64,000 nucleotides of DNA. Source: Natronococcus sp. CG52. GTDB taxonomy: Archaea; Halobacteriota; Halobacteria; Halobacteriales; Natrialbaceae. The first letter of the stretch is position 1; the number at the start of each line of letters is the position of its first letter. The position numbers and the translations under genes are program-made. Shown in pieces: positions 13,250 through 56,276 of this stretch. The stretch lies in contig NZ_CP099391.1 in assembly GCF_023913515.1 (NCBI RefSeq), positions 496,001-560,000 of the forward strand, given 5' to 3'. Below the pieces are notes generated by a model. It was not told the DNA's origin and made no database searches. It was given only the letters and a program-made list of their open reading frames with translations.

Positions 13250-14224
13250 ATGACCGGCAGTCACGACAGTTCGAGACTCTCTCGACGGGTGCTGTTACAG
13301 GCCACGGGCGGGACGATCGCGCTCTCGAGCGCCGGGATCGCGGGCGCGAGCGGAACCGACGACTCGAGCGGACGGCTCTCCCGGCGATGCCCCGACGCGA
13401 CGCTGCAACCGAGCATGGGACACTGCGAGGGCGCGAGTGTGGAGGGCTGTGCGGACGACCATCCCGCCACGGTAGCGCTCCGGGAAGAGGTCCAGGAGAC
13501 GCTCGAGACCCGGTATCCCGACGTCGGCGCGCTGATCGACGCGGGGTTCAAGCCGTACTTCGATACACTCGACGGCGAGGACGACGGCTGGTCTCACTGG
13601 TTGAATCCGGAGTACATCGGCGACGACACCCTCCTGGATCCCGAGCGACCGGAGTCGGTGCTCGTCGACAACCAGTCCTGGCGCTCGATCGGCGTCATGT
13701 TCATCGCGACTCGCGACGGCGAACCGATCGATCCGCCGCCGGCGGTGTACGACGCTGACGGCGATAGCGAGTCTCCAGACGACGGTCACGAGCACGACCG
13801 AGATCCCGATGACGACCACGATCACGAGAACGGGCACGGCCACGATCAGGACGACGACCACCACGACTATCCTGAGGGCGATCCGGACCGCTGCTCACCG
13901 TGGCACTACCACGCCGGGCTTCCGGGCCGATTCGCGTGGTGGTACTACCAGCAGGCCTACGAGGGGGCTTTCAGAGAGGGCGACCTCCAACTCCCCTGTC
14001 GCACGCCCTGTCTGATGCACGTCTGGGCGGTCGACCACCCCGGCGGAGCGTACGCACACGACGGTCCGCCGGCCGCGTCTCGCGACGACGAACCCGCCGA
14101 GGACCCCGGATTCGAAGACGCGGAACCTGGCGAGGACGAACTCGGCTGGGACGTGCTGCCGGACGAGGTCGCCCCCGACCGGAAGCCGGACGAGTTCTCG
14201 ATCCCCGGGCGGCCGGGACCATAG
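13250..14224 (+). CDS. Tat-exported His/Asp-rich protein
   Basis: 324 residues beginning with a twin-arginine signal (SRLSRRVLLQATGGTIALSS). The mature part has a conserved-looking core (LIDAGFKPYFDTLDGEDDGW, then SWRSIGVMFIATRDGEPIDP). A roughly 45-residue insert dominated by His and Asp (around 182-222) follows, then CSPWHYHAGLPGRFAWWYYQ and an acidic tail. Several Cys (CPDA, GHCEG, GCADD, CRTPC) could form disulfides. The His/Asp stretch suggests metal binding outside the cytoplasm. Family not recognised. Confidence 0.75.
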   Translation: MTGSHDSSRLSRRVLLQATGGTIALSSAGIAGASGTDDSSGRLSRRCPDATLQPSMGHCEGASVEGCADDHPATVALREEVQETLETRYPDVGALIDAGFKPYFDTLDGEDDGWSHWLNPEYIGDDTLLDPERPESVLVDNQSWRSIGVMFIATRDGEPIDPPPAVYDADGDSESPDDGHEHDRDPDDDHDHENGHGHDQDDDHHDYPEGDPDRCSPWHYHAGLPGRFAWWYYQQAYEGAFREGDLQLPCRTPCLMHVWAVDHPGGAYAHDGPPAASRDDEPAEDPGFEDAEPGEDELGWDVLPDEVAPDRKPDEFSIPGRPGP

Positions 14225-14249: not shown

Positions 14250-14696
14250 TCAGGCTCTCCACGACTCGAGCGCGGCCAGGACCTGCGCCGTCGCCTCCGT
14301 AACCGACGACTCGTCGGTGTCGATCCCGAGGTCCGGATTCGGCGGCTCGAACTCCCGGTAGATGACGTGGACGCCCCGCTCGTCGATCGATTCCCGTCGA
14401 TTCCGGTTCCGCTCGAGACAGGTCTCGAGAGTCGCGGTCACGAGGACGAATCGGACCTCATCGAGCGTGCGAAACCGTTCCTGCCAGCGCCGCCGGTAGA
14501 AGGTGCCGTCGACGAGCCAGAGCACGTCGTCGGGTCCCTCGGCGACGCGTTCTGACAGTCGCTCGTAGGTGCGACTCGAGAAGTCGTCGGAGTGGAGCAG
14601 TCGCGTCGGCTCGTCGCGGCTCTCGAGTCGACGGTCGACGCGGGTCGCGATGGTCGTCTTTCCCGCACCGGGCGGCCCGCAAATAACGACGATCAC
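14250..14696 (-). CDS. Small P-loop kinase-like ATPase
   Basis: 148 residues. The Walker A motif GPPGAGKTT is at 7-15. HSDDFSSRTYE and the strand VLWLVDGTFYRRRWQERF resemble the PSTK/KTI12 and adenylylsulfate-kinase branch of P-loop kinases, followed by a lid-like ETCLERNRNRRES. Short but apparently complete. It could phosphorylate a small metabolite or an RNA-linked group; the substrate is not evident. No partner gene is adjacent on the same strand. Confidence 0.75.
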   Translation of the reverse strand: MIVVICGPPGAGKTTIATRVDRRLESRDEPTRLLHSDDFSSRTYERLSERVAEGPDDVLWLVDGTFYRRRWQERFRTLDEVRFVLVTATLETCLERNRNRRESIDERGVHVIYREFEPPNPDLGIDTDESSVTEATAQVLAALESWRA

Positions 14697-14774: not shown

Positions 14775-15812
14775 TCACTCCCAGTCGATATCCTCGCTGC
14801 GACTCGAGTCCCGAAGGATGAACGGTCCGATCGCCAGCGTCCGCTTCGCCATCGTTCCGATCCGGAGGACGAACGCGACCAGCAGGAGAAACGGCGTGAC
14901 GGCGACCGTCGCCGCCGTCACGACGACCCAGGTGACGGTATCGACGCCGAGTACCGTTCCGGTGATGGCTTCGGCATCGAAAAAGAGCAACATCGACATC
15001 GCGACGACCAGTGCGGGCACCGAGACGTACATCATCGCCCGCGAGAGGTTGATCAGCTCCCACTGGAAGTACAGCGTCTTGAAGTGCTCGCGGGCGAGTC
15101 CGAACAGCTTCAGCGCCTCGAGGAGATCGTCGTAGGCTTCCCGGGCCTCGTCGGTGAACGACTCCGTGTGAACGTTCTGGATCCGGCGAGCACGGAAGAT
15201 CTTCCAGGAGTAGTTGTAATCCAGCGCCGCCTTGAGGACGTCGTAGGTGCCGAACTGGGCGTCGGCCAGATCGTCGCGGATCGAGTCGGCGTGGGTCGTG
15301 AGGTTGTCGACGAAGTCGTCGACGCGCCCCTCGAACTCCTCGTCGCGGCTGTCGGCGACGGCGTCGCGAAACTCCGAAGCGCGATCCTGGGAGGCGGCGA
15401 CGATCGCCTGCATGAACGATGCCGGTTCGGGCGGGCTAATCTGCGCGTCGATCACGTCCTCGACGTCCTCGTGAAAGTCGAGCGACCCCTCGAGTCGCTC
15501 GCGCTGATCGTCGACGGCACCCAGTTCCTGGGAGAGCACGAGCTGGTTGATCGTCAGGACGAGGGTGACGCCGGTGATGATCGCGGTCACGAGCGCCTGG
15601 AAGAGGAAGTGAACCGGCTCTTTCACGGCCATGAGCCCCCGGAGGGAAACCGGACTGAGTTCGCTCAGTACGAGTAGACCGACGAAGACGAACGCCATGA
15701 GGCCGGCGGTTACGACCCACCGGTTCGCGTTGAGAAGCAACCACAGCTTCCACGTCGAATCTTCGCTCCGCTCGGCCATCGTATCGTCGGGCTGCGAACT
15801 GTCGCTGCTCAT
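14775..15812 (-). CDS. Four-helix membrane protein, paralogue 1 of 3
   Basis: 345 residues from MSSDSSQ. Predicted layout: charged N-terminus, two membrane helices (about 32-52 and 70-92), a 150-residue helical soluble domain, two more helices (about 255-277 and 290-318), and a conserved end LAIGPFILRDSSRSEDIDWE. Shared segments with the two neighbouring genes are NQLVLSQELG after helix 2, the FGTYDVLKAALDYNYSWKIF region and AREHFKTLYFQWELINLSRA. Family not recognised; it may form an oligomeric membrane complex. The next paralogue starts divergently 230 bases away. Confidence 0.8.
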   Translation of the reverse strand: MSSDSSQPDDTMAERSEDSTWKLWLLLNANRWVVTAGLMAFVFVGLLVLSELSPVSLRGLMAVKEPVHFLFQALVTAIITGVTLVLTINQLVLSQELGAVDDQRERLEGSLDFHEDVEDVIDAQISPPEPASFMQAIVAASQDRASEFRDAVADSRDEEFEGRVDDFVDNLTTHADSIRDDLADAQFGTYDVLKAALDYNYSWKIFRARRIQNVHTESFTDEAREAYDDLLEALKLFGLAREHFKTLYFQWELINLSRAMMYVSVPALVVAMSMLLFFDAEAITGTVLGVDTVTWVVVTAATVAVTPFLLLVAFVLRIGTMAKRTLAIGPFILRDSSRSEDIDWE

Positions 15813-16041
15813 CGGACGGACTCGAACTACGATACCGACCGGCAAATACGCACGGCCGGCGGTCGCTCTCGGTCGATACGCGGTCGAGACGGACCGACGA
15901 CACGGATCGTCTCCGTTCTGCCGTCTCAGTTACCGATCAGTCGACGCTCGCAAACGGTAGCCGACCGGTAGCGTGCGTTCGGTCCAACGGTGATTCGCAA
16001 ACAAAAGCACTTCTACGGGGGGTCTGGTAACGTATCGCTGT

Positions 16042-17088
16042 ATGACTGAGTCCGGCTGGAGTGACGAGACGGCCAGCACCATCGAAGACCGCGTCCGCGG
16101 CGGTCGCCTGATGGTCTGGTTCCTGGTTCGAGGGAACCGTCTGGTTGTCGCCAGCGTGATGGTGTTAGTCGCGTACGCGATACTGATCGCTCTCGGCGAG
16201 TTCGGTCCGGGTTCTATCTCGAAACTCTTCGAACCCGATCCGGTGTTCGCGCTGTTCACGCCGATCGTTATCGGCATCATCATGGGTGTCAGCCTGGTCC
16301 TGACGTTCAACCAGCTCGTGCTCTCCCGGGAACTGGGTCCCGTCGGCGACCAGCGCGATCGGATGGCGGAGGCGATGGACTTCCGCCGGGACGTCGAGGA
16401 AGCCGTCGGACGGGAAACCAGTCCCCCGGAGCCGTCGACGTTCCTGCGCGGCCTCGTCGAGAAGACCGGCGAGCACGCGAGCCAGATTCTCGACCGCCTC
16501 GACGAGGAGCCCGCTCTCGATGACGACGCGCGGTCCGACGTCGCCGGGTACGCCGAAGGGGTTCGCGACGACGCCGAGAGAGTCACCGAGGACCTCAAGG
16601 GCCAACAGTTCGGGACGTTCGAAGTCGTGGCAGCGGCCCTCGAGTACAACTACTCCTGGAAGATCTACATCGGACGGCGAGTTCGAAACCGCCACGCGGA
16701 CGTCCTCTCGGAGGAGACCATCGAGTCGATCGACAGGCTGCTCGAGGACCTCCAGTTCTTCGGGCCGGCCCGCGAGCACTTCAAGACGCTGTACTTCCGG
16801 TGGGAGATCATCAACATCTCGCGGGCGCTGGTGGTCATCTCCCTGCCCGCGCTGGCGGTCGCCGCCTACATGATCCTGATCTTCGAGACGGGCGACGTCG
16901 CCGGTTCGGTCGCCGGCGTCGACAGCGGACTGCTCGTCGTCGGACTCGCGTTCGCGATCGGCGTGATGCCGTTCTCGATCTTCCTCTCGTACATCCTCCG
17001 GATCGTCACCGTCGCGAAGTGGACGCTCGCGATCGGTCCGTTCATCCTGCGAGAGACCGACCGCGGTTCGGACATCGAGTGGGAGTAA
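16042..17088 (+). CDS. Four-helix membrane protein, paralogue 2 of 3
   Basis: 348 residues with the same architecture as its neighbours and closest to paralogue 1. Shared landmarks are NQLVLSRELGPVGDQRDRM, FGTFEVVAAALEYNYSWKIY, AREHFKTLYFRWEIINISRA and a C-terminal LAIGPFILRETDRGSDIEWE. The helical middle domain is the most divergent part. It is divergent from paralogue 1 and convergent with paralogue 3 (stop codons about ten bases apart), so the three genes are transcribed separately rather than as an operon. Local duplication followed by divergence is the simplest history. Confidence 0.8.
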   Translation: MTESGWSDETASTIEDRVRGGRLMVWFLVRGNRLVVASVMVLVAYAILIALGEFGPGSISKLFEPDPVFALFTPIVIGIIMGVSLVLTFNQLVLSRELGPVGDQRDRMAEAMDFRRDVEEAVGRETSPPEPSTFLRGLVEKTGEHASQILDRLDEEPALDDDARSDVAGYAEGVRDDAERVTEDLKGQQFGTFEVVAAALEYNYSWKIYIGRRVRNRHADVLSEETIESIDRLLEDLQFFGPAREHFKTLYFRWEIINISRALVVISLPALAVAAYMILIFETGDVAGSVAGVDSGLLVVGLAFAIGVMPFSIFLSYILRIVTVAKWTLAIGPFILRETDRGSDIEWE

Positions 17089-17095
17089 CGTTTCG

Positions 17096-18151
17096 TCACT
17101 CGCTCCTATCGCGATACGAGACGTCGAACTGCCCCTCGTCAGGATCTTTCTGGGGGAGAATCGGCCCGACCGACGCGGTTCGCCGGGCCACGGTCGCGGT
17201 TCGGAGGATGAACGCGACGAGTAGCGCGAGCGGCGACACGACGACCGCGACGAGCCCGCTGACGACGTAGGGAAGGAGCGCGGTGCTGATGTTCGGACCG
17301 CCGAGATCAGCGTAGATGAACCCGATGAGCATCGCCGAGAGTATCGACGGAACGCCCGAGTAGATCGTTAGTTGGGAGAATCGAGTCAACTCGCGCTGCA
17401 GGTACGTCGTCTTGAAGTGGTCCCGGGCGACGCTGAACAGTTTCAACGCGTCGATCAACTCGTCGAAGGCCGTCTCCGTTTCCTCTGAGATCGAATCGGC
17501 GTGCATCCCTCGAAGGTGTCTGGCAGCGTACATCTGCCACGCGTCGTTGTACCCGATCGTGGCCGAGAGCGCCGTGAACGTGCCGGACTTCGCGTTCTCT
17601 AGCGTTTCGTCGATCCGCTTGGTGCTCTCGTCGATAGTGTTGACGTACTTGGCGACCAGTCTCGCAAACTCTTCGTCCTCGTGATCCGTGACGGCATCGG
17701 AGAGATCGTGAGCGTGGTAGTGAATCGTCTCGACAAGGAGTTCGAGCAATCTCGTCGGTGACGCCGGCGATGCCGGCACCTCCGCCATCTCTTCGATATC
17801 CCGTTGAAAGTTCATGACGCCGTCGATCTGGTCACGAGCCTCCCCGGCGGTAGCGAACTCCCGAGAGAGAATGAGCTGATTGATCGAGACGACGAGCGTG
17901 ACGAGCGAGAACGTGCCCGCGATCATCCCGCCGGCCAGGCGGGTGATCGAGTCGTCGTTGACAAACGCGATGATACCGAGTTCGTTCAGAGAGAGAAACA
18001 GTACGAAGACCGCGAGTGACAGAAGGAGCGCGATAAAGACGCGACCACCTTCGACCAGCACCCAATCCGATACTCGTGTCAGCGAACTCGTTCGTTGACC
18101 GATATCGGCTCCGTATGATTCGAGCGTCTCGTCGACCTCGGACCGATCCAT
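17096..18151 (-). CDS. Four-helix membrane protein, paralogue 3 of 3
   Basis: 351 residues, the most diverged of the trio. It keeps the spacing and key segments: two N-terminal helices, VSINQLILSREFATAGEARD, FTALSATIGYNDAWQMYAAR, ARDHFKTTYLQRELTRFSQL, and a last helix pair followed by TATVARRTASVGPILPQKD. The Asn-Gln-Leu-Leu-Ser-Arg-Glu block after helix 2 is the best conserved and may mark the membrane-cytoplasm boundary. Function unknown. Codon use matches the flanking genes, so recent transfer is not indicated. Confidence 0.8.
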   Translation of the reverse strand: MDRSEVDETLESYGADIGQRTSSLTRVSDWVLVEGGRVFIALLLSLAVFVLFLSLNELGIIAFVNDDSITRLAGGMIAGTFSLVTLVVSINQLILSREFATAGEARDQIDGVMNFQRDIEEMAEVPASPASPTRLLELLVETIHYHAHDLSDAVTDHEDEEFARLVAKYVNTIDESTKRIDETLENAKSGTFTALSATIGYNDAWQMYAARHLRGMHADSISEETETAFDELIDALKLFSVARDHFKTTYLQRELTRFSQLTIYSGVPSILSAMLIGFIYADLGGPNISTALLPYVVSGLVAVVVSPLALLVAFILRTATVARRTASVGPILPQKDPDEGQFDVSYRDRSE

Positions 18152-18444
18152 GGAGTCACGTTCGCCGGAGGTGACAATAAGGGACCACGTTGCATATCCC
18201 GCTCCGGTGTCAAATCGACGGACATCGCCGGCGTCGACTCGGTCTCTTCTCGGCGACTCGACCGTTACCGTCGTCCTCGAGTTGTGACGAGTGCCGTGTA
18301 ATTCACCTGCGGGCGTATCGGTTCGACTGAGTCGGAATCTGACGGTTCATGGCTCACACTGAAATACACTCGCGCCGTCGAATCGACCATGATCAGCTAC
18401 GGGGACCGTCTTCGAGACCGTTCGTTCCGGAGGCTCGAGGAGCC

Positions 18445-18939
18445 ATGACCCGGCCGACACTGAGTCGCCGCCGCGTTCTCGGCTCGGCCGGCGTCGCTAT
18501 CGCGGGCGCGTTTGCCGGCTGTAACGACGTCGGCGGGGGTGGCGAACCGGAGTACGAGGACGGCGAGGTCGGTAACGTCGACGGCGAGGCGCGGTCGGCC
18601 GAACAGATGGCTGCAGCCGAGGCGCTCGCCGAGCAGGAGGTCAACGAGGGCGTCACTCCGCTCGACGTACTCACGATCCAGAACCACGAGTTCGTGCTCG
18701 AGGATAACTACCTCGGCTCGACGGTCCAGGGAACCGTAGAGAACACGGGCGAAGACCGGATCGAAATCGTCGAGGTTCGGGTCCGCGTCTACGACGAGAC
18801 CGGAACCCAACTCGGGCAGTATCTCGACGTCACCGGCGACCTCGCCGGGAACACCACGTGGAATTTCCAGGTCGTCATCCTCGAACCGCCGGCCGACATC
18901 GCCGACTACGAGATCGCGGTGCTCGGCACCCCGTCGTGA
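18445..18939 (+). CDS. Tat lipoprotein with FxLYD-like domain
   Basis: 164 residues from MTRPTLSRRRVLGSAGVAIA, a twin-arginine signal ending in a lipobox (AFAGC), so probably a lipid-anchored surface protein. After an acidic linker the C-terminal half (about 85-160) reads as a beta-sandwich of FxLYD type: STVQGTVENTGEDRIEIVEV, then VRVYDETGTQLGQYLDVTGD and an Asn/Thr-containing strand. Such domains occur on archaeal surface proteins of unknown role. An upstream extension to 18349 is less likely because the Tat motif sits at the chosen start. Confidence 0.82.
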   Translation: MTRPTLSRRRVLGSAGVAIAGAFAGCNDVGGGGEPEYEDGEVGNVDGEARSAEQMAAAEALAEQEVNEGVTPLDVLTIQNHEFVLEDNYLGSTVQGTVENTGEDRIEIVEVRVRVYDETGTQLGQYLDVTGDLAGNTTWNFQVVILEPPADIADYEIAVLGTPS

Positions 18940-18955: not shown

Positions 18956-19309
18956 CTACGGGGACGAATCCCTCTCGTCGACGAGTTCGTCCGCAACCCC
19001 CTCGTAGATCGTCTCGACCTGCTCGTTCAACTCGTACGCCGGTCGACCCTTTCCGGTCGGCGAGCGCTCGTCCGGTTGCCGCTCTTCGACGAACCCCTCG
19101 GCCTCGAGGCGGTACAGCGACCGCATCACGTCGGCTTCGGTGATCGTCCCGACGACCTCCGCCTCGGCGTCGTTCAGCCGTGTCCGGCACGTGCGCCGGA
19201 TCTCGTGCGTCTGGACGGGAATCTCGTCGTTGCGGTGCACCTCGGCAATGGCACACAACACCACCTGTTCGGTTAGCGAGAGCGATTCGATGTCTGACTC
19301 GGCCACCAT
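18956..19309 (-). CDS. Winged-helix protein, Orc1/Cdc6 C-terminal-like
   Basis: 117 residues from MVAESDIESLSLTEQVVLCA. The predicted fold is a single winged helix: LTEQVVLCAIAEVHRNDEIP, a helix with the recognition segment ITEADVMRSLYRLEAEGFVE, and a wing ending in GRPAYEL. The pattern resembles the DNA-binding C-terminal domain of Orc1/Cdc6, but without the AAA+ module. A stand-alone transcription factor or replication accessory is possible. A GTG two codons upstream could also serve as start. Confidence 0.7.
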   Translation of the reverse strand: MVAESDIESLSLTEQVVLCAIAEVHRNDEIPVQTHEIRRTCRTRLNDAEAEVVGTITEADVMRSLYRLEAEGFVEERQPDERSPTGKGRPAYELNEQVETIYEGVADELVDERDSSP

Positions 19310-19425: not shown

Positions 19426-20256
19426 CTACGCGTTCTCTTCTTCCTGCAGTTCCTCGAGTTCGCTGTCGATCTCGTCGTCGTCGACTTCGGCCTCGAGGTC
19501 CTCGATCTCGGACTCGTCGACCGCCTCCTGAGGTTCGGACTCGGATTCGGCGCCGGAGTCGGCGCCGACGTCCGATTTGAGCGTCTCGAGTTCGGCCTCG
19601 ACGCCGCTGTCGGTCGAGAGCTCCTCGAGTTCGCGGTCGATCTGATCCTTATCGGAGAGTACGTCGTCGAAGGCACCCGTCTGGTGGAGTTCGTCGAGCG
19701 CGGACGCGCGAGCCTCCATGTCCTCGGTCTGCTCCTCGGCGCGTTCGATGGCGCGGCCGACGTCCTCGAACTCGTCACCGGTGGCCGTCATCGCTTCCGA
19801 CACCGTCGAGCTGGCCTCGGCGGCCTCGTAGCGGGCCTTCATCGTCTCCTTCTTGGTGCGGAACTCCTCGATGCGGTTCTGCAGTTCGTCCTTCTGCTCG
19901 ATAAGCTGGTCCTGCTGGCTCTGGAGCTCCGAGACCTGACGCTCGAGGTCCTCGATCTGGTTCATCTTCGTCTTCTTCTTCTCGAGGGCGCGGCGCGCCA
20001 GATCCTCACGGTCCTGCTGGACGGCCGTTCGGGCCTGCTCGTTGTGTTTCTCCACGTTCTCCTCGAGGCGCTTTTTCTGCATCTCGAGGCGCTTCTTCTG
20101 GGTGGTGAGGTCGGCGATACCGCGTTTGACGTCCTGGAGCTGATCGCGCATCTGCTCGTAGGAGTAATCCAGCGTCTCGGTCGGGTCCTCGGCCCGGTTG
20201 AGCACCGAGTTGATCTTCGATCGAATGACGTAGGAGGTCCGAGAGAGGATGCCCAT
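19426..20256 (-). CDS. pspA: PspA/IM30 family membrane-associated protein
   Basis: 276 residues. The N-terminus MGILSRTSYVIRSKINSVLN is the amphipathic helix of the PspA/Vipp1 family. A long coiled coil follows (about 35-175; QKKRLEMQKKRLEENVEKHN and onward), then an acidic C-terminal tail rich in Glu and Ser. In bacteria these proteins assemble on stressed membranes; haloarchaeal homologues are linked to salt and envelope stress. Length is typical. It is divergent from the hydrolase gene, with a palindromic repeat element in the shared spacer. Confidence 0.9.
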   Translation of the reverse strand: MGILSRTSYVIRSKINSVLNRAEDPTETLDYSYEQMRDQLQDVKRGIADLTTQKKRLEMQKKRLEENVEKHNEQARTAVQQDREDLARRALEKKKTKMNQIEDLERQVSELQSQQDQLIEQKDELQNRIEEFRTKKETMKARYEAAEASSTVSEAMTATGDEFEDVGRAIERAEEQTEDMEARASALDELHQTGAFDDVLSDKDQIDRELEELSTDSGVEAELETLKSDVGADSGAESESEPQEAVDESEIEDLEAEVDDDEIDSELEELQEEENA

Positions 20257-51577: not shown

Positions 51578-52597
51578 ATGACGAGCGTCAAAGAGTTCCA
51601 CATCGAGGAAGAAGCGACGTCCGACAGTCTCGGGCAGGGCTCGTTCGTCTTCACCGACGACTACTCGGTGTTCGACTGGGGGAAGATGCCCGACCAGATT
51701 CCCGACAAGGGGGCCAGCCTCTGTACGATGGGCGCCTTTAATTTCGAACTGCTCGAGGACGCGGGCGTTCCGACCCACTACCGCGGCGTCGTCGAGAACG
51801 GCGAGATCCTGTCGCTCGAGGACGCCTCGCGACCGCCCTGGCAGATGGCCATCGATCTGACTCAGGTTCCGAGGCTCCCAAACGAGGGCCGAGAGTACGA
51901 CTACGACCACTATCACGAGGCGGCCGGACAGAACTACCTGATCCCGCTCGAGATCGTCTTCCGCAACCGCGTCCCCGTCGGCTCGAGTCTCCGCCGACGG
52001 ACCGATCCCGCCGATCACGGCCTCTCGTTCGAGAGTTGGCCCGACGAAGCCGTCGACCTCGAGGAACCGATCGTCGAGTTCTCCACGAAGTACGAGGAGG
52101 GCGACCGCTATCTCGACCGCGAGGAGGCCGACGCCATCGCCGGCAAGGCGGACATCGCCGACCTCGAGTCGATCGCCGACGAAGTCAACCGAGTCGTCAC
52201 CGATCAGGCCGTGGAGACCGAACTGTTCCACGAGGACGGCAAGATCGAATGTTGCTACTACGACGGCGGGATTCGAGTCGCCGACGTCGTCGGAACGTTC
52301 GACGAGAACCGCTTCAGCTACGGCGAAACGCAGCTGTCGAAAGAAGTCCTGCGCCAGTACCACAAGCGCACCCAGCCCGAGTGGGTCCAGGCCGTCAAGG
52401 CCGCGAAAGCCGAGGCGAAACGGGAGGACGTCGCCGACTGGAAGTCGCTCTGTGATCTCGAGCCGAAGCCGCTCGACGAGCGCGTGCTGAAGACCGCGCG
52501 GAACATGTACTGCGCCGGCACCAACACCTACACCGGACTGGACGTTTTCGACGCGCCGCCGCTCTCGAGTGCGGTCGGCTCCGTGCAGGGACTGTAA
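51578..52597 (+). CDS. purC: SAICAR synthetase (phosphoribosylaminoimidazole-succinocarboxamide synthase)
   Basis: 339 residues from MTSVKEFHIEEEATSDSLGQ. ATP-grasp-like SAICAR synthetase: GQGSFVFTDDYSVFDWGKMP, LIPLEIVFRNRVPVGSSLRR and the IVEFSTKYEEGDRYLDREEA region, where the usual bacterial order is present with halophilic insertions. Catalyses addition of aspartate to CAIR in purine synthesis. The long form (about 100 residues over the bacterial enzyme) is typical of Halobacteria. Start at ATG 51578; a GTG three codons earlier is possible. Confidence 0.93.
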   Translation: MTSVKEFHIEEEATSDSLGQGSFVFTDDYSVFDWGKMPDQIPDKGASLCTMGAFNFELLEDAGVPTHYRGVVENGEILSLEDASRPPWQMAIDLTQVPRLPNEGREYDYDHYHEAAGQNYLIPLEIVFRNRVPVGSSLRRRTDPADHGLSFESWPDEAVDLEEPIVEFSTKYEEGDRYLDREEADAIAGKADIADLESIADEVNRVVTDQAVETELFHEDGKIECCYYDGGIRVADVVGTFDENRFSYGETQLSKEVLRQYHKRTQPEWVQAVKAAKAEAKREDVADWKSLCDLEPKPLDERVLKTARNMYCAGTNTYTGLDVFDAPPLSSAVGSVQGL

Positions 52598-52848
52598 CCC
52601 TCTCTGGCCCCGTTGAAAATTTCCTCTTTGTATGAGATTTCATCTGAAATAGCCGTCACGTGGATGTGCGAACCTACCGCTGGTACTGCTATCAGCTACC
52701 GGCGATGCTGGTAGAGCCGTGCTGAATACGGGGCGCGTAGTCAGTGCGAGTCAGGGCCCGATCACCGTGGAATAGTGATTGGTCAATACAGGCCACAGAG
52801 ATACTATCATTGGAAAAGATTTATTATTTATAAATAAAACTCATTTTT

Positions 52849-53289
52849 ATGAATGTTATATCGGTATCTCGCCGGCACGTGATTGCTATACTCGGTCTTT
52901 CATCACTTGCAGGCTGTTTAGATGCTGTCCCGCTCAGGTCTGATAGTAAAACAGGCGTCCCGTTGGGAAGCCTTTTCATACATAATCCAAGTGAAGAACC
53001 ACAATCAGTACAACTGCGACTCGAACGTGCGGATGAAATCGTTTATGAAGGTGATGTAGAAGCAGCGGAAGGATACGAAATTATCGACCCGTCGTGGTCA
53101 ACGGAACCAGCCGAGTATACCCTGCTGTACGCCACTGATGAAGAAATCGGAAGCGCTTCGATTCCCACGGATTTCGAAGGAATGGCGAATTCAGCAGACT
53201 GCTACCACGCACTGTTTAACTTCCACGGTCCGCTGGAACCACAGGTTGAATTACGGGATTCTGATGAGTTTGCTGAGGGCACCTGTTAA
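52849..53289 (+). CDS. Short Tat lipoprotein in low-GC segment
   Basis: 146 residues. VSRRHVIAILGLSSLAGCLD is a twin-arginine signal with lipobox. The mature part is a predicted small beta domain (PLGSLFIHNPSEEPQSVQLR, EIVYEGDVEAAEGYEIIDPS) with two Cys (ADCYHALF, EGTC-stop). Codon use and GC are distinctly lower than the flanking genes. Similar exported proteins are scattered in haloarchaeal accessory DNA. Start at ATG 52849 follows an AT-rich promoter region. Confidence 0.75.
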   Translation: MNVISVSRRHVIAILGLSSLAGCLDAVPLRSDSKTGVPLGSLFIHNPSEEPQSVQLRLERADEIVYEGDVEAAEGYEIIDPSWSTEPAEYTLLYATDEEIGSASIPTDFEGMANSADCYHALFNFHGPLEPQVELRDSDEFAEGTC

Positions 53290-53467
53290 TCAATTCTCAG
53301 TTTGCAGGACCTCTTTCGGGTAATTCAGCAAACACCGGGTGAAATAAAGCAAACTGCTGTGCTGCACACATCCTCTCTATCAGCACACCGCTCTTGACAG
53401 GTACTCGGTAGTTCGAACCGGTTTTGCTGAACCCACAGAGCAAATGTAACACGAGAGCCTCGGTACC

Positions 53468-53845
53468 CTATTCAGTTGACGAACTGGCCGATGAGGAGAT
53501 AGTTTGAAACCGATTGCGTGCACTCAACAGGTATGCGAGGGCGGCAAACGCGACTACTATCTGTGGTACCTGTGTGAAGCCGAAGACAGTTGCTCCGAGT
53601 GCAAGGTCAAGCACCAATAGTGTATATAGTACGACAGCTGCGACCCATCCCACGAGGAAACCCCGCCACAGCAAGTAGGCGATAGCGAATCCAGCAAATC
53701 CCGCCCAGACCGCCGTCCGCCCCTCCGGTACAGCGTAACTAATCGCAAAAAGGCTCGTTACCAAACGCTCGACACTGTATAGCACCGTAATCAGGACGAC
53801 TCCGACGGTGCCGAGCGGTTGGGAGCGTAATGACTCTACATTCAT
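53468..53845 (-). CDS. Small membrane protein in low-GC segment
   Basis: 125 residues from MNVESLRSQPLGTVGVVLIT. About four hydrophobic helices (12-35, 45-62, 64-85, 88-105), then a Ser-rich tail. No recognised family. A longer start at 53926 adds 27 non-conserved-looking residues. Lower GC than neighbours, like the lipoprotein next to it. Divergent from the following gene. Confidence 0.65.
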   Translation of the reverse strand: MNVESLRSQPLGTVGVVLITVLYSVERLVTSLFAISYAVPEGRTAVWAGFAGFAIAYLLWRGFLVGWVAAVVLYTLLVLDLALGATVFGFTQVPQIVVAFAALAYLLSARNRFQTISSSASSSTE

Positions 53846-53955
53846 ACCAAATTCTTCAGTCTGGTATACATAAGCATTTATTCCGTACGGGGGTGTGGCG
53901 ATCTCACCGCCAGTTAAAGAAAACAATCTTGTCTGCTGAGAGAAAATCAGGCACT

Positions 53956-54450
53956 ATGACAGTGTCGTCTCCCTCTCGTCGTTTTCTCCTCCAGACGATC
54001 GCTGGTGTGATTCTCGGTGTAGTGGCCTACTTGAGACAGCCTCGCTGGCCGGGGTTCTTTGGAGGATATATAGAGGCCACACCGCTCGAACCGCTGATCG
54101 ATCCCGAGGAGCACGATGACCAACTCCCGCCAAATGAGTTCGTCACCCCTTCGAGCGACAGTAAACTGGTCGACCTTGTCCCGTTACAAGACGCGTTACA
54201 ACAACCCAGCGAACAGATAGAATTATCGCGACGTGAATTCGGCGACGCGTACAGCGTCTTAGAGGAGTTCCCGGTGTTCGAACCGCACCACCACGAGGGA
54301 CACGATCACCCAGCAGTTAGCCACGGTGGAATCTACGTCCGTGATGCAGAATATACGTATGTAATCCAACTTATTCCGTGGTGTAGCAACGTGTGGTGGA
54401 TCGAAACGAGAGGAACTCCCGAAGGACGGGCCTCCTGTGCCGAGCGATAG
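53956..54450 (+). CDS. Exported or anchored protein with His-rich motif, low-GC segment
   Basis: 164 residues from MTVSSPSRRFLLQTIAGVIL, a twin-arginine-like signal or anchor (SRRFLLQ). The mature protein contains EFPVFEPHHHEGHDHPAVSH, a histidine-rich stretch that could bind metal, followed by GGIYVRDAEYTYVIQLIPWC. Two Cys near the end (PWCSNVWW, ASCAER). Function unknown; its composition links it to the two preceding genes. Confidence 0.7.
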   Translation: MTVSSPSRRFLLQTIAGVILGVVAYLRQPRWPGFFGGYIEATPLEPLIDPEEHDDQLPPNEFVTPSSDSKLVDLVPLQDALQQPSEQIELSRREFGDAYSVLEEFPVFEPHHHEGHDHPAVSHGGIYVRDAEYTYVIQLIPWCSNVWWIETRGTPEGRASCAER

Positions 54451-54679
54451 TGGTGCTTCGGGACTTTCGAATTAGATCTGCCGAAAAATTGTTGTGTTCT
54501 GTGAGTGATCCTCTGAATTCCGCTAATTGTGTACTTCCTGACTTCAACTCCGTAGATATCACCTGTAGCTGAAAAAATCCGAGGGTCGGTTCGAAACTGC
54601 ACGTAGCGATCGATTCAGCGCCGATGGATGGTACTTAACTGCCGCGTCGTGATGGATACATCCACTATATTCCGAACTG

Positions 54680-54919
54680 TTGGCTCGCTACGAGCCACGC
54701 AGGCTGGAAGTGCAAATCGATTCGATGACGGTCATCCGAGACGTCAGGGGTGGCGATGACCCGACGGAACCGGGCGTCGAGACGTACAGCGAGGCCGTCA
54801 CGGCGGCACTGTCGAGCATCCCGGAACACCAGTACACGCATCTGGCCGACAGCGACCCGAACCCCGCCGACGCACTGGCGACGGTGGGAGCCGATATCGC
54901 GGCCTTCGGACCGGGATAG
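54680..54919 (+). CDS. Possible gene fragment
   Basis: A 79-codon frame from TTG 54680, or 64 codons from ATG 54725 (MTVIRDVRGGDDPTEPGVET, then HLADSDPNPADALATVGADI). Composition returns to high GC here. It may be a decayed or partial gene at the edge of the low-GC segment. A perfect 3-base-loop hairpin (TGGCTCG, CTA, CGAGCCA) overlaps the upstream end at 54681-54697. No family recognised. Confidence 0.35.
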   Translation: MARYEPRRLEVQIDSMTVIRDVRGGDDPTEPGVETYSEAVTAALSSIPEHQYTHLADSDPNPADALATVGADIAAFGPG

Positions 54920-55202
54920 TAGAGTTACGCCGCTTACAATTCGAACTCCCGGCTCCGTTAGAATCCTCAGAAGCTACTAGAAACCACGTACTGACTACAC
55001 CCTCTGTATTCAGAACTGTGTTCTCGACAGCTATCAGTGAAATCGATTGCCACTCCGTCACCTGCTCGCCCTGTACGTAGTCCGATTAACGGACAGTTGG
55101 CAACAACAGAACATCTCAACATCGAAAACAGACTGCGCGTAGGTGGACTGTTTTCAGTCGGAGAAAGCCGTCAGCGCTGGCCCGTCGAACGACCAGAACA
55201 GA

Positions 55203-56276
55203 TCAGGGACTCGGCAGCGTCACGAAGAAGGTCGATCCCTCGCCGGGTTCGGACTCGACCTCGATGCTGCCGCCGTGGCGCTCGACGATCCGTTGACTGA
55301 GTGCGAGTCCGATCCCCGTTCCCTCGTACTCCTCGCGGCTGTGCAGGCGGTCGAAAACGTCGAAGATCCGCTCCTGGTCGTCCGGATCGATGCCTATCCC
55401 GTTGTCGCTGACGGCGACGATCCACTCGCCGTCGCTCCGTTCGGCCTCGACGTGGATCCGCGGCGGCTCGTCGCCGCTGTAGGTGATCGCGTTACTGAGC
55501 AGGTTCTGGAAGAGCTGCCGGAGCTGACTCCGGTCTCCCGAAACCGTCGGCAGGGAATCGACCGTTAGCTCGCCGTCCCGTTCCTCGAGTGCGATCTGCA
55601 GATCCGTCCGGACCCCCTCGAAAATCTCGTCCAGATCGACCGGTTCGAACGGGTTGCCGCGGGTCTCGATCCGGGAGTACTCGAGCAGCCCCTCGATCAT
55701 CGCCCGCATCCGCTCGGCGCCGTCGACGGCGAACTCGATGAACTCCTCGGCGTCGTCGTCGAGTTCGTCGGTGTACCGGCGCTCGATCAACTCGAGGTAG
55801 CTCGTGATCATCCGCAGCGGCTCCTGCAGGTCGTGTGAGACGGCGTAGGCGAACTGCTGGAGGCGTTCGTCCGACTCCACCGCCTCCTGCTCGTTTTGCT
55901 TTCGTTCGGTGATGTTCCGGTAGGTAACGACGCCGTACGAGTCGCCCTCGTACTCGGTCCGCGTCACGGTCAGCTGGAACCACCGCGCTTCGGTCGGCGA
56001 GCGACACGGGTACTCGAGCGAGAATCGTTCCTGCTCGCCGTCGAGAACGGCCCGGGTTCCGTCGGCGGCTTCGGCCGCGTACGGGCTGTCAGAGCCGTCA
56101 CAGACGGAAATGTAGTTTGCGCCGACGCCGTCGACCGGCGGCCGGAGCTCGTCTTGCTGGGCGAACGTTTTCCACGCCTCGTTCGTCGCCAGGATCGTCC
56201 CGTCAGAATCCAGTACTGCGATATTCGACGACAAGGTATCGAGGACGTGAAACCCCAGCCCCTCGGGAATCTCCAT
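55203..56276 (-). CDS. PAS domain sensor histidine kinase
   Basis: 357 residues from MEIPEGLGFHVLDTLSSNIA. PAS domain (about 8-125; NIAVLDSDGTILATNEAWKT), HisKA with phospho-acceptor His in YAVSHDLQEPLRMITSYLEL, and HATPase with N box LFQNLLSNAITY, G1 DNGIGIDP and G2 GTGIGLALSQRI. No receiver domain or membrane helix, so it is a soluble cytoplasmic kinase of the Bat/phytochrome-like group common in Halobacteria. No response regulator is adjacent. The upstream extension to 56462 is not conserved-looking. Confidence 0.9.
   Translation of the reverse strand: MEIPEGLGFHVLDTLSSNIAVLDSDGTILATNEAWKTFAQQDELRPPVDGVGANYISVCDGSDSPYAAEAADGTRAVLDGEQERFSLEYPCRSPTEARWFQLTVTRTEYEGDSYGVVTYRNITERKQNEQEAVESDERLQQFAYAVSHDLQEPLRMITSYLELIERRYTDELDDDAEEFIEFAVDGAERMRAMIEGLLEYSRIETRGNPFEPVDLDEIFEGVRTDLQIALEERDGELTVDSLPTVSGDRSQLRQLFQNLLSNAITYSGDEPPRIHVEAERSDGEWIVAVSDNGIGIDPDDQERIFDVFDRLHSREEYEGTGIGLALSQRIVERHGGSIEVESEPGEGSTFFVTLPSP

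Follow-up and report, generated by a model that had tools for sequence, protein, structure and literature searches.

A haloarchaeal family of four-helix membrane proteins and its linkage to pspA

In bacteria, the role of membrane anchor or sensor toward PspA falls to proteins such as PspB/PspC, LiaI and PspM. To our knowledge, most haloarchaea possess PspA but no recognised membrane partner for it, and the sequence family defined here, which is present in most haloarchaea sampled, fits this vacancy. Its members share with PspB/PspC, LiaI/LiaF and PspM, for all of which an anchor or sensor role has been proposed, the character of integral membrane proteins of small to medium size whose genes lie next to pspA. 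They differ from these bacterial partners in giving no Pfam match to their models, in having a cytosolic bundle of 150 residues in addition to four predicted transmembrane (TM) helices, and in occurring as many paralogues per one PspA.

Archaeal Psp networks have been described as largely unknown (Popp et al., 2022; PMC9239133). The same authors report HVO_2637, a transmembrane protein with tentative bPH_4 and EphA2_TM domains encoded downstream of pspA in Haloferax volcanii, and treat it as a single protein, giving no family, fold or paralogues (Popp et al., 2022). PspA of H. volcanii is raised at high salt (PMC3235422), and the portion of Ravi et al. (2024; PMC11237479) considered here describes nothing resembling the family.

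Three genes of a larger family

The window analysed is a stretch of 64,000 nucleotides from the 4.74 Mb genome of Natronococcus sp. CG52 (contig NZ_CP099391.1, positions 496,001 to 560,000). Between positions 14775 and 18151 it holds three genes on alternating strands, designated P0001 (14775-15812, minus strand, 345 aa), P0002 (16042-17088, plus strand, 348 aa) and P0003 (17096-18151, minus strand, 351 aa), with lengths, coordinates and strands exactly as listed in an earlier note on this DNA. P0001 and P0002 are divergent, with 229 bp separating their starts, and P0002 and P0003 are convergent, with 7 bp separating their stops. When P0002 is used as the query, P0001 is recovered at E 3e-90 (43% identity) and P0003, the most diverged of the three, at E 6e-51 (33% identity); these values are well past chance, so the genes are homologous, and their earlier description as paralogues holds. 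Two of the motifs quoted in that description, NQL-LS-E and AR-HFKT-Y, are invariant across the alignment of all three proteins (N89-Q90-L91-x-L93-S94-x-E96 and A240-R241-x-H243-F244-K245-T246-x-Y248), whereas the GPFILR-like end quoted with them is not general: G329-P330 alone is common to the three, and P0003 reads GPILPQ. All three genes are under purifying selection, with dN/dS of 0.20-0.27 against their orthologues, and therefore none of them is a decaying copy.

On the far side of P0003 lie a lipoprotein-like gene (18349-18939, plus strand; weak DUF3426 match), which is retained where the cluster has its Natrialbaceae form, and a small winged-helix gene (18956-19309, minus strand; weak Cdc6_C/PadR matches), a possible regulator. 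These two genes occupy the approximately 1.3 kb between P0003 and pspA (19426-20256, minus strand), which is confirmed as PF04012 (E 4e-32); the genome has no other PspA/IM30 gene. P0001 is flanked by a P-loop kinase-like gene (AAA_33; 14250-14696, minus strand), a frequent Natrialbaceae neighbour whose link to the family is uncertain. The gene at 13415-14224, whose 269-aa product has a stretch rich in His and Asp and matches no Pfam model, is kept next to the cluster at about 17 loci. Elsewhere in the window, the region 52001-56000 has a G+C content of 0.54-0.59, against about 0.65 in the remainder, and carries small lipoprotein-like and membrane ORFs.

P0001, P0002 and P0003 are members of a previously undescribed family of haloarchaeal membrane proteins with four helices, which extends far beyond this cluster. 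Searches of Pfam, NCBIfam, PADLOC, PHROGs and PDB sequences gave no meaningful match, in keeping with the earlier view of an unrecognised membrane protein kept as distinct paralogues, and the annotated plasmid-borne members among the matches listed are named 'hypothetical protein'. The host genome holds 12 full-length copies and one fragment; in genomes other than this one, copy counts are lower bounds because scoring covered the best candidates only. In a phylum-wide sample the family was found in 71 of 81 genomes of the same order (the host genome counted) and in one sampled genome outside it; a named Nanohaloarchaeon also carries it, and no member was found in the phage records searched.

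In the phylogenetic tree, each of the three belongs to a different clade, well supported and old, which rules out a recent tandem triplication. The P0002 and P0003 clades are confined to Natrialbaceae in this sample, with orthologues at the same locus and in the same relative strands in Halopiger, Haloterrigena, Halobiforma and Natronoglomus, while P0001 belongs to a clade whose relatives in other taxonomic families include genes directly behind pspA. The cluster was therefore put together long ago and has stayed in place. The phylogeny that had been called for thus separates the copies into three old clades, all of which have orthologues at this position in other Natrialbaceae, and the idea of a cluster of three paralogues survives in part: the copies are indeed distinct, but they are not a local trio, being three of the 12 full-length copies and members of old clades.

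Several observations concern other copies of the family. Two of those in the host genome, L118:6688-7767 (contig C3) and L120:6332-7411 (contig C1), are nearly identical, and therefore duplication within the genome is still going on. A short family-gene fragment at L127:5631-5912 (contig C3) is probably a decayed copy. A membrane gene of the Pfam TM_HPP family (L070:4222-4788) adjoins one family gene, and putative counterparts, judged by size or appearance alone, lie beside family genes at L025, L086, L087 and L125:8038-8547.

Linkage to pspA and to DUF4177 genes

Loci picked by their similarity to P0001 would bias any estimate of linkage, and pspA was therefore sought on its own in 80 genomes of the sample, after which its location was set against the positions of family genes. 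A family gene lies within 5 kb of pspA in 45 of the 68 genomes that hold both, against a chance expectation of about 2% per genome given six copies, and in 44 of these 45 it lies on the 3' side of pspA. The nearest family gene is likewise 3' of pspA in all 48 named loci that hold pspA. In 22 of the 68 genomes, drawn from five taxonomic families, the gene is on the same strand within 300 bp of pspA, 48-264 bp behind it, and the linkage is also kept beside diverged pspA genes of 53-58% identity (G028, G089, G211 and G351). The genomes G289, G309, G109, G327, G304 and G375 carry, at a separate place, another pspA that has diverged to about 37-57% identity.

The adjacency is in part block synteny, as a hydrolase gene divergent from pspA is also conserved beside it, and genes for CTP synthase, threonyl-tRNA synthetase, an epimerase and DUF1611 are often near the pspA locus. 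The close spacing on one strand, seen in several families and kept next to pspA genes that have diverged, goes beyond block synteny but does not in itself prove function; such genes would be expected to be co-transcribed with pspA. A promoter scan with a sigma-70 model carries no information for an archaeon. Since the founding member is usually directly behind pspA, it is a possible candidate for the membrane partner missing from the PspA stress response of archaea. Besides the block synteny, several observations count against this reading: most paralogues are located away from pspA, the family is present in three genomes in which no full pspA was detected (G143, G231 and G020), and pspA occurs without a family member in at least eight sampled genomes.

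The same arrangement is found in Haloferax. The genome G383 was assigned to this genus through a plasmid contig on which 73-88% of 20 kb is covered by six Haloferax plasmids at 81-83% identity, and there pspA is followed, after 91 bp, by the gene of a family member of 349 aa. HVO_2637 occupies the same position downstream of pspA, and by analogy of gene position it is very likely a member of the family.

One clade of the family has a second conserved neighbour, a small DUF4177 gene. Of the 45 DUF4177 matches in 71 genomes, 30 precede a co-directional family gene at a distance of 23-141 bp, and these 30 come from 22 genomes; two annotated plasmids carry the pair with overlapping frames. These plasmid copies group in the tree with the chromosomal DUF4177-linked copies of the host genome (L119 and L122). 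DUF4177 genes were also noted directly upstream of family genes in the host genome, at L119:6465-6659 and C1:3329641-3329763. The DUF4177 linkage suggests a different account, in which family members act broadly as receptors or scaffolds in the membrane with a partner that varies by clade, PspA is an inherited neighbour and the DUF4177-linked clade pairs with the DUF4177 protein. The varied neighbours of the other paralogues in the host genome and the occurrence of family genes where pspA is not recognisable would also suit it. Plain synteny, however, accounts less well for a short-spaced, same-strand linkage to pspA that recurs in five families and also where pspA has diverged, and we regard this account as possible but somewhat unlikely.

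Predicted fold and comparison with channels and motors

Hydropathy gives four main peaks in each of P0001, P0002 and P0003. In the AlphaFold model of P0001 (pLDDT 86, pTM 0.79), TM1 spans residues 31-52 and TM2 residues 66-97; the bundle is formed by helices at 100-214 and by a long helix at 221-277 that runs into TM3, and TM4 ends at 328. P0003 is modelled with the same layout (pLDDT 78), so that the two helix pairs around a soluble helical middle domain, proposed from the sequence in the earlier note, are also predicted by the models of both proteins. Basic residues are commoner at the N- and C-termini than in the two short loops, and the bundle is predicted to be cytosolic for this reason; in P0001 it corresponds to residues 98-249 (15066-15521, minus strand), with AREHFKTLY at its end. 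The predicted topology is thus an inner N-terminus, TM1-TM2, a cytosolic bundle of about 150 residues, TM3 arising from one long helix, TM4, and a basic, inner C-terminus. Conservation is strongest at the cytosolic membrane face, in the second half of TM2, in AREHFKTLYFQWEL ahead of TM3 and at the end of TM4.

This order of helices recalls that of bestrophins, which are pentameric anion channels, and of MotA/ExbB proteins, in both of which two TM helices, a cytosolic helical domain and two further TM helices follow one another; MotA/ExbB proteins share, in addition, conserved prolines in TM3 and TM4. The family could on this basis be an ion channel or a proton-driven motor subunit, probably oligomeric and with TM2, the helix of highest average conservation, lining the pore. 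The P0003 model gives weak Foldseek rows to bacterial, mammalian and plant (VCCN1) bestrophins over most of its length (E 0.16-0.4), and the Klebsiella bestrophin aligns over the bundle alone (Z 7.3, 3.7 A, 105 residues). Such TM-scores (0.14-0.21) and Z values near 7 are, however, at the noise level for helical bundles. Foldseek searches of PDB and of viral models returned nothing at E 0.001 or better, a channel match included, and the VIA rows are chiefly generic four-helix bundles (invertase inhibitors, TTYH proteins and designed proteins) with Z as usual for helical models. Membership of the bestrophins is rejected on profile evidence, as no match to PF01062, PF14023 or PF25539 was found among 51 family members, or above cut-off in the genomes, the hhalign probability is 0.4%, and the WEAR-type motif that follows TM2 in bestrophins is absent from the alignment of the family; the PF01062 search alone shows little because this model matched in no control, whereas PF25539 was detected in the E. 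coli control. Membership of MotA/ExbB is rejected likewise, with no PF01618 match in any of 59 genomes (8 controls were detected) and an hhalign probability of 0.6%; both probabilities are no better than the 1.0% of bestrophin against MotA. The profile comparisons thus do not support the earlier suggestion of a channel, and the fold searches gave no significant match; a channel or motor function is improbable.

A proposed membrane partner of PspA

The reading preferred here is that the family is a membrane anchor and sensor for PspA that has been duplicated into several receptors, to which we give a probability of about one half. Besides the gene linkage, the clustering of conserved residues at the cytosolic membrane face and the salinity response of haloarchaeal PspA speak for it. 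No match to the PspB, PspC or LiaI-LiaF-TM Pfam models was found in 51 family members at E up to 0.1, and hhalign gave no relation between the family and PspA itself, which counts against it. In the proposed mechanism, the founding member, encoded directly behind pspA, would most likely be both anchor and sensor. A disturbance of the membrane, through salinity or loss of proton-motive force, would alter the packing of the TM helices, a sensing and putative gating step; in response, the bundle and the belt of conserved residues on the cytosolic side of the membrane would capture PspA or let it go, the protein that polymerises on the membrane and repairs it being PspA itself. P0002 and P0003 would be further receptors arising from older duplications, perhaps with roles distinct from that of P0001. 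The earlier guess of a membrane-remodelling complex receives indirect support from the linkage to pspA.

The main significance of the locus lies in this link to PspA, outside coordinates 14775-18151, and the Haloferax member makes the role of PspA partner testable. A broader and rather doubtful extension is a modular haloarchaeal envelope-stress system, in which one PspA would be served by up to a dozen four-TM receptor paralogues. Some of these would work with PspA and others with small DUF4177 proteins, and every receptor would respond to a membrane condition of its own. If true, this would be a type of receptor that has not been described for the bacterial Psp systems.
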